Assembly: GCA_955652705.1 (NCBI GenBank)
Contig: CATPBK010000080.1
Location: 1-64,000, forward strand
Length of the DNA: 64,000 nt
Direction: 5' to 3'
DNA from: Candidatus Dormiibacterota bacterium
GTDB taxonomy: Bacteria > Chloroflexota > Dormibacteria > Dormibacterales > Dormibacteraceae
Shown here: piece after piece, positions 23,573 to 25,554 of the stretch
How the letters are laid out: each line of letters begins with the position of its first letter
Position numbering within the stretch: position 1 is the first letter of the stretch
The notes under the pieces: generated by a model
What the model was told of the DNA's origin: nothing
Database searches by the model: none
The model's input: the letters and a program-made list of their open reading frames with translations, nothing else
Position numbers and translations under genes: made by a program

Positions 23573-24307
23573 CTATGCTTCAGCCGGCCTCAGACGCCGC
23601 CAGGGCTTGAGCCCAGTCAGCTTTGCGAGACCGGCGGCCGCCAACAGCACGGTCCCGTCGATGACGCAGTAGCCGCCGGCGATGACGGACGGCGGGTTGC
23701 CGGTCGGCACCAGCGTGTAGGGAGCGACCGCCTCCCAGCGCCAGTTTCCGAAGCTGGTTCCGAGGATCTCCAGGAGCGACGTGCAGATGAAGATGCCGGT
23801 GAAGAGTCCGGCCCGTGGGGAGCGAAGCACGAACCAGGCGAACGAGGGCAGGCAGAGAGCGCCCGACACGTCGAGGCGCCCGGTCAACGCGGGCAGAACC
23901 GTGAGCCCGGCCAGGGCCCAGCCGGTCGCGGCGGTGAGGGCGAGCCGGTTCAGTAGGCGGCCGTGCCTGGCCATCACTGGCAAGCGGGCCCAGGTCAGGC
24001 CGAAGAGGTAGACCAGGCCGTGGCCCGGCGGCACGTAGAGGGGCACGTTGTGAAAGCGGTAGCGATAGAGGCCCCAGACGAGAGAGCCGAAGATCTCGAA
24101 CCCGGTCGCCACCAAGATGCAGAGCCAGACCTGGCGGCGCTCGGCCGGGGGCGAAAGGCGCCCGGCCAGGAAAAGGACGGCGAACGTCAGCAGGCCGAGG
24201 CCGTACTGCTCGTTGACGGTCGTGATCCGCGCGTCGATGAAGAGGACGAAGGGGATGTAGAGCGAGAAGCCGATCTGGAGGGCGTACGGTCGGAGGGCTC
24301 GGGCCAC
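23573..24307 (-). CDS. Unknown integral membrane protein
   Basis: 244 residues, GTG start, six or seven hydrophobic helices (for example LLTFAVLFLAGRL, WLCILVATGFEIFGSLVWGL, FTGIFICTSLLEILG). Conserved-looking polar points in the helices include FEIFGSLVWG, PPGHGLVYLFG and TSFGNWRWE. No family recognised. It follows the DUF393 gene by 13 bp and may form an operon with it; TAGCAT lies 10 nt before the start. Confidence 0.7.
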   Translation of the reverse strand: MARALRPYALQIGFSLYIPFVLFIDARITTVNEQYGLGLLTFAVLFLAGRLSPPAERRQVWLCILVATGFEIFGSLVWGLYRYRFHNVPLYVPPGHGLVYLFGLTWARLPVMARHGRLLNRLALTAATGWALAGLTVLPALTGRLDVSGALCLPSFAWFVLRSPRAGLFTGIFICTSLLEILGTSFGNWRWEAVAPYTLVPTGNPPSVIAGGYCVIDGTVLLAAAGLAKLTGLKPWRRLRPAEA

Positions 24308-24320
24308 TTGAGCCTAGATG

Positions 24321-24734
24321 CTACGGCGCCCGGACATCGTCGCAGCCGCTTTCAGGGTCGTCGCATTCGGGCCGGCTGCCGAAGCGGTGGAACCGGCTTC
24401 GGTTCCTCGCAAACCAGCGGTAGAGCGCCTCCTCCGCGGCTGCGAGCGGAGGCACTCGGTAAGCGAGGGCAGGCAAAGCCCAGGGCCCGCCGATCACCTC
24501 CAGCACGCGGGTGATCGCGGCCGCGCCTTCCCACCGGCGCCCGTCGGGGCCGATAGCCCAGGCGGCCCGCTCCGTCTCCGCCCGGCTGAGGCCGTACTCG
24601 GCCAGGGCGCCTTTTCGCTGACTCGGGATGGCCAGCACACGGCCGGCCCGGTCGCGCCGGCGGACCCAGCGCGCCAGCCTGGTGCAAACGCCTCAAGTCC
24701 CGTCGAAGAGGAGGACCAGTTCGGTCTCGCTCAT
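24321..24734 (-). CDS. DUF393/DCC thiol-redox protein with in-frame TGA (candidate selenoprotein)
   Basis: Reading through one TGA gives 137 residues: MSETELVLLFDGT, then TGA (codon 14, 24693-24695), then GVCTRLARWVRRRDRAGR. DCC-family proteins carry D-G-x-C-x-x-C here; the TGA replaces exactly the first Cys, giving UxxC. The rest is intact and typical: GPDGRRWEGAAAITRVLEVI, GGPWALPALAYRVP, ALYRWFARNRSRF. The ATG overlaps the stop of a short upstream frame (ATGA). Either selenocysteine is inserted, or this is a one-base nonsense pseudogene. No Sec machinery is in the window. Confidence 0.7.
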
Positions 24735-24846: not shown

Positions 24847-25554
24847 GTGAGGATCACCCGCCATGGTGCCCATCTGGTCCAGCTGACGCGCTACCCCGCC
24901 GTCTTCCCGATGAACTGCTACCTGGTCCTGGAGGATGACGGGCTGACCCTTGTCGACAGCACGATGTCATCGCCCGCCGCTGACGTCGCGGCGGAGGCAC
25001 AAAACCTGAGGCTCGAGCTCCGGCGCATCGCCTTGACGCACGCCCACGGGGACCACATCGGCGGGGTGGCCGGAGCCCGAGAGCGTTTCCCTGGCGTCGA
25101 GATATCGATCGGCGAGCGCGAGGCGCGACTCCTGGCGGGTGACAAGACGCTGGACAAGGAGGAGCCGCAGACGCCGGTGAAGGGCTGGTTCATGAAGGTC
25201 GAATGGAGGCCCGACCGGCTGCTGAAGCCGGGCGACCGCGTGGGCTCACTCGAGGTGGTGGCGGCGGCAGGTCACACTCCGGGCCAGGTCGCCTTCCTCG
25301 ACGTCCGCGACCGCAGCCTCATCGCCGGGGATGCCATGCAGACGCGAGGCGGCATCGCCGTGTCGGGGCGGGTGGTGCCGCTCTTCCCCTTCCCCGCGCT
25401 GGCCACCTGGCACAAGCCAAGCGCGTTGGCTACCGCCGAAACGCTGCGCCGGCTGGATCCAGCGCGCCTTGCGGTGGGGCATGGCGACGTGCTCGAAGCT
25501 CCGGCGGAGGCGATGGATCGCGCCATCGAGTCAGCTCGCCGGGCATTCGCCTGA
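24847..25554 (+). CDS. Metallo-beta-lactamase-fold hydrolase
   Basis: 235 residues, GTG start. Dinuclear metal motif THAHGDHIGG, later His in AAGHTPGQVAFLD, bridging Asp in LIAGDAMQT and final GHGDVLEAP. Layout of glyoxalase-II/YcbL-like single-domain enzymes. The hydrolysed substrate is not deducible. Divergent from the DUF393 gene. Confidence 0.88.
   Translation: MRITRHGAHLVQLTRYPAVFPMNCYLVLEDDGLTLVDSTMSSPAADVAAEAQNLRLELRRIALTHAHGDHIGGVAGARERFPGVEISIGEREARLLAGDKTLDKEEPQTPVKGWFMKVEWRPDRLLKPGDRVGSLEVVAAAGHTPGQVAFLDVRDRSLIAGDAMQTRGGIAVSGRVVPLFPFPALATWHKPSALATAETLRRLDPARLAVGHGDVLEAPAEAMDRAIESARRAFA

Follow-up and report, generated by a model that had tools for sequence, protein, structure and literature searches.

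Is the TGA at a catalytic position of a redox motif in this locus a stop codon or a codon for selenocysteine (Sec)? The window, i.e., the whole stretch of 64,000 nucleotides that was analyzed, comes from the draft genome (166 contigs) of a soil bacterium. The gene under study consists of the following elements:

24321-24734, minus strand: CDS of the putative Sec-containing DCC1-like (PF04134/DUF393) thiol-redox protein, Sec-DCC (ATG to TAG; PF04134 match; orthologues)
24693-24695, minus strand: in-frame UGA, candidate U14, first catalytic position of UxxC (congener G001; UxxU relatives; Sec machinery)
24684-24686, minus strand: TGC codon of the second catalytic residue, C17 (TGA in UxxU relatives)

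The reading frame and its in-frame TGA

The frame opens with the ATG at 24734 and closes with the TAG at 24321-24323, and when read through it would yield a product of 137 aa with U14, starting with MSETELVLLFDGT-U-GVCTRLARW. The TGA (24693-24695) is codon 14 of this frame and is followed by 123 open codons without any other stop, just as the first-pass annotation had described. With C written for U, Pfam assigned PF04134 (DCC1-like) to residues 8-116 with an E-value of 3.6e-20 and a score of 73.7 bits against a gathering cut-off of 27.8, covering positions 1-111 of the 113 in the profile, which confirms the earlier assignment to the DCC/DUF393 family. The D-x-x-C-x-x-C motif of PF04134 corresponds here to DGT-U-GV-C and is complete only when the UGA is decoded as Sec at the position of the first Cys, so the TGA does stand where the earlier D-G-x-C-x-x-C comparison had put it. 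This is the only DCC1-like protein found in the genome.

A pipeline unaware of Sec would annotate the 105-aa ORF starting from the GTG at 24638, i.e., a truncated DCC protein lacking the active site, with the TGA as the genuine stop of a short leader peptide. Such a start would discard the conserved LLFDGT before the TGA together with the catalytic motif, although the orthologues conserve the LLFDGT codons, which align with the beginning of the Pfam domain, and in-frame TGAs occur only at the two catalytic positions. We consider this internal start very improbable and regard the full-length frame as the gene.

Recurrence of the TGA and the selenocysteine machinery

Profile searches of the genome revealed selB (344.6 bits), the adjoining selA on the same contig (493.3 bits) and selD (360.2 bits), each over its curated cut-off, as well as tRNA-Sec with the anticodon TCA (67.5 bits). 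All four genes selA, selB, selC and selD are thus present. The selD gene (L038) has an in-frame TGA in its GUACK motif, a Sec variant already known for this enzyme; selD is therefore itself a selenoprotein gene, and together with Sec-DCC the genome would encode at least two selenoproteins.

Orthologues were searched with the protein in 61 genomes of relatives, then in 110 genomes from the class and 400 from the phylum, nearly all of them draft or metagenome assemblies; the close matches that carry names are Dormibacterota and Chloroflexi MAGs. Altogether 33 readable Sec loci were obtained (20 UxxU, five UxxC and eight CxxU) versus 35 Cys forms. In the translated orthologues the TGAs, terminal stops apart, fall on the two catalytic positions. 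Besides the congener, the TGA forms occur in relatives belonging to at least seven family-level groups within the phylum. The UGVC form is shared by the window, the congener G001, G009 and G031, while most other members of the clade have UGVU, UGFU or UGLU. A second subclade carries CEFU, CDFU, CGFU or CQFU (G002, G003, G010, G015, G022, G025, G027 and G029). Outside the class, Sec forms were found in five other family-level groups (UGLU in G293, UGFU in G387 and G397, UAFU in G195 and UPFC in G286). Homologues with CGPC, CGIC or CGVC lie in or beside the same clade, and the in-frame UGA aligns with their redox Cys. The proposal of a TGA at the first Cys thus holds for the window and its UxxC form, and the same codon is TGA in the congener and other relatives; beyond the window, however, most relatives are UxxU and another subclade is CxxU. 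Two genomes carry more than one copy: G006 has both CGPC and UGFU paralogues (L022 and L057), and in G025 a second, partly masked DCC copy adjoins the CGFU gene (L028/L074, contig C133).

The first-pass annotation had named a recent nonsense mutation or a base error as alternatives, in which the TGA would have arisen from TGC by mutation or artefact. The two codons are indeed one base apart, and the genome is a draft. On the other hand, the congener and dozens of assemblies obtained independently have TGA at this very codon, which makes a base error very unlikely, and a second TGA is often found exactly at the other catalytic Cys. Nor are decayed copies seen in the close relatives: their genes are intact, and the dN/dS ratio against the congener was 0.22 overall and about 0.24 after the TGA (0.110/0.459), with values of about 0.15-0.5 after the TGA in seven pairs. 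Ratios well below 1 in a stretch free of other stops indicate purifying selection on the read-through part. These results contradict both alternatives, and we give a pseudogene or sequencing error hardly any credence.

In a maximum-likelihood tree of 68 sequences, in which U was written as C to keep the trait out of the data, at least seven changes between Sec and Cys are required, and 11 when all four patterns are distinguished. The well-supported branches alone force four changes between Cys and the rest. The UxxC pair that includes the window sits beside UxxU sequences (support 92/65), a placement suggesting that this lineage may have changed its second Sec to Cys.

At least one of selB, selA and tRNA-Sec scored over the curated cut-off in 34 of 34 genomes with a Sec form, a number that includes G035, whose gene is split over two contigs. 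Some of these sets are partial: tRNA-Sec is present without selA and selB in G019, G033 and G106, and without selA in G397, while G032 has selA and G027 has tRNA-Sec. All of these assemblies are incomplete. No tRNA-Sec match was obtained in eleven genomes with CxxC forms only. In the ten CxxC-only genomes of family f2 (G043, G067-G073, G076 and G077) neither tRNA-Sec nor SelB was found over the cut-off, and G272 (CGVC) gave no selA and no tRNA-Sec match. Cys forms are also present in machinery-bearing genomes, e.g., G004, G007 and G023, as expected if Sec was changed to Cys there. In G029, three tRNA-Sec matches were over the cut-off (67.2, 65.7 and 53.2 bits); the contamination estimate of this assembly is 6%.

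The RNA downstream of the TGA

A bacterial SECIS (bSECIS) is expected within the coding region shortly after the UGA. The first-pass annotation had drawn a CCAG/CTGG hairpin at +10 to +28, but it is not conserved. A different hairpin (H1) is, and in the main Sec clade it is followed by a second one (H2); apical loops are given in single brackets:

24653-24673, minus strand: bSECIS-like hairpin H1, CGCGCUGG[GUCCG]CCGGCGCG (Sec-versus-Cys contrast; published bSECIS constraints)
24631-24647, minus strand: hairpin H2, GCCGGC[CGUGU]GCUGGC (near-invariance in the main Sec clade)

The published limits for a bSECIS are an apical loop of 3-9 nt with a G in the first two places, a stem of 4-16 bp, a distance of 16-37 nt from the UGA and a minimum free energy of −7.5 kcal/mol or lower (PMC13188914). 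The H1 of the window falls within all of them, with a 5-nt loop (GUCCG, beginning with G and then U) located 27 nt after the UGA, a stem of 8 bp and an energy of −21.5 kcal/mol. The fold energy, however, was no better than that of shuffled sequences and is uninformative for a SECIS, because this DNA has a GC content of 68%.

More telling was the comparison of Sec and Cys forms. A hairpin that places the Trp codon UGG at the apical loop and has a contiguous stem of at least 6 bp was present in 28 of 33 Sec forms versus three of 34 Cys forms. The stem contrast gave p=4e-8 in a Mann-Whitney test that treats relatives as independent and scores one Cys locus (L085) mistakenly among the Sec rows. 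The fractions from synonymous-codon shuffles combine to p of about 5e-5 with one sequence per lineage from ten lineages of our choice. Among the Sec forms, synonymous identity averaged 0.77 at codons 4-20 after the first U versus 0.48 further downstream (p=1e-4), reaching 0.9-1.0 at codons 7, 8 and 16-20, while it was 0.14-0.57 at the comparable codons of the Cys homologues. The lineages build H1 in differing registers: in addition to that of the window, we found CGUGCGCU[GGAUUCG]GGCGCACG in G293, GUCGUCUG[GGU]CAGGCGAC in G195 and GCGCUG[GGUC]CAGCGC in the CxxU subclade. In the UxxU genes, the H1 loop lies 27 and 18 nt from the two UGAs, both within 16-37 nt. The case for a SECIS rests on this freezing of the sequence, on the contrast between Sec and Cys forms and on hairpins that were formed anew in differing registers across lineages. 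When covariation of H1 and H2 was assessed in the main clade, 184 of 500 shuffles reached the observed value with one H1 register and 25 of 500, a marginal result, with the other. At this position no hairpin resembling H1 is seen in G286, a Sec form with UPFC. Some UxxU sequences seemed by eye to have a lower stem between columns 18-23 and 53-58, but the pairing fails when compared across lineages.

H2 retains five or all six of its six pairs in 22 of 22 main-clade Sec sequences, versus at most four in the CxxU subclade, in G195 and G397 and in the majority of Cys forms; five pairs are also found in a few Cys forms. It is a possible accessory part of the SECIS. We also entertain, with considerable doubt, that the UxxC/UxxU clade possesses a two-part SECIS composed of H1 and the near-invariant H2 45 nt after the first UGA. 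It would represent a new bSECIS class, through which SelB might in a single pass decode a UGA at the first position, or two that are nine bases apart. As DNA, the H2 block GCC GGC CGT GTG CTG is nearly invariant in the window and in loci L009-L025, L047-L057, L079 and L080, whereas most Cys homologues lack it.

Like the SECIS of E. coli fdhF, H1 is a hairpin within the coding region with a small apical loop. In the CxxU subclade this loop is GGUC and lies about 17-18 nt after the UGA, as in fdhF, whereas the window differs in its spacing of 27 nt, its loop GUCCG and the conserved H2 that follows.

Finally, the UGA could be decoded as a residue other than Sec, by near-cognate suppression or in a reassigned code, and low-level readthrough of UGA is common in bacteria. 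In the window, however, TGA is a normal stop, ending 20 of 44 long non-overlapping ORFs, so the UGA is not the product of a changed genetic code. In addition, the Sec forms are confined to genomes with Sec machinery, every TGA stands for a redox Cys, and the downstream RNA constraint is specific to the Sec forms. We therefore deem a non-Sec residue extremely unlikely.

Proposed function and relation to known families

Considering the UGA, the protein family, the machinery, the recurrence at two catalytic positions, the purifying selection and the Sec-specific RNA constraint, we conclude that this is very probably a genuine selenoprotein gene encoding a stand-alone DCC oxidoreductase. The selenocysteine first suspected from the open frame is thus supported by the Sec machinery, the intact relatives and the recurrent TGA. 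The nucleophilic Cys position would be encoded by UGA14, at which Sec would be inserted by SelA, SelB, SelC and SelD of the same genome, directed by the putative SECIS 27 nt downstream.

To get an idea of the fold, the protein was modeled with AF2. The model, of moderate confidence (pLDDT 70.8), has a strand at residues 6-10 and a helix at 16-27 followed by strands and helices, with U14xxC17 at the head of the helix; as modeled, this is the layout of a thioredoxin-like redox site. The sequence search against PDB found no relative, and Foldseek returned no significant match, the best being the glutaredoxin Mrx1 with an E-value of 0.17. The protein is probably cytosolic, and it most likely reduces disulfides or peroxides, using Sec as the nucleophile. 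In the mechanism that we propose, U14 would attack the oxidised substrate (a disulfide or peroxide) and then pair with C17 in a selenenyl-sulfide, which would be reduced again by a thiol system of the cell. In the UxxU relatives, the catalytic pair would form a diselenide, and one hairpin may serve both UGAs.

Members of the DCC1-like family (PF04134, DUF393; B. subtilis YuxK type) resemble Sec-DCC in the domain that spans almost the whole length, in the F/Y-D-G-x-C/U-x-x-C/U motif, in a conserved W and in the Y-R-x-x-A-x-x-R region. The curated family has Cys at the catalytic positions, unlike the proteins described here, which would carry Sec at one of them, either the first or the second, or at both. 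Sec-containing thioredoxins, glutaredoxins and DsbA-like proteins (UxxC) similarly have a helix that begins with the redox motif and use Sec as the nucleophile, but they have no sequence match to Sec-DCC in Pfam or PDB, and the fold match is weak (Mrx1, see above). The Prx-like thiol:disulfide oxidoreductase selenoprotein (PF00578) is listed with UxxC and UxxU forms in a 2026 inventory (PMC13188914). It is likewise a thiol-redox selenoprotein having both forms, but it belongs to another protein family and no CxxU form is listed for it (PMC13188914).

That review tabulates 119 families of prokaryotic selenoproteins without a PF04134 or DCC entry (PMC13188914), and no model of NCBIfam release 20 matches the Sec-DCC protein. 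A literature search, whose scope excluded bioRxiv and most subscription papers, found no mention of a DCC selenoprotein. The comparative genomics strongly supports a new Sec variant within a family of thiol-redox proteins that is already known. A family with largely unknown biochemistry would thereby join the selenoproteins, and because Sec is seen at either position of CxxC or at both, the exchange of Cys and Sec can be compared position by position in close relatives. The UxxU genes also allow one to ask, in a natural setting, whether a single SECIS suffices for decoding two UGAs that lie close together. Pipelines that treat TGA as a stop would truncate or lose such genes in Dormibacterota and other Chloroflexota-related bacteria.

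The neighbourhood of the gene in the window comprises:

23573-24307, minus strand: gene of a hydrophobic 244-aa protein, co-directional and downstream; possible operon partner in the subclade
24847-25554, plus strand: gene of a metallo-beta-lactamase-fold hydrolase, divergent; context, outside the system

The start of the gene had been described as coupled to an upstream frame by ATGA. These letters are present, but no listed upstream ORF of at least 20 aa ends there and the upstream neighbour is divergent, so translational coupling is unsupported. Across families, there was no conserved neighbourhood that could hint at the substrate; only genus-level neighbours were seen. Downstream, the gene of the 244-aa protein starts 13 nt past the Sec-DCC stop; the protein has no match in Pfam or NCBIfam, and relatives of it are encoded beside DCC genes in G001, G006 and G013. 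In genus g9, Sec-DCC is followed, apparently via an ATGA overlap, by the gene of a TMEM164-related integral membrane acyltransferase (TIGR02206, 150.7 bits). This gene lies at about 356-1052 past the motif at locus L017, and it was also found at 13 further loci.
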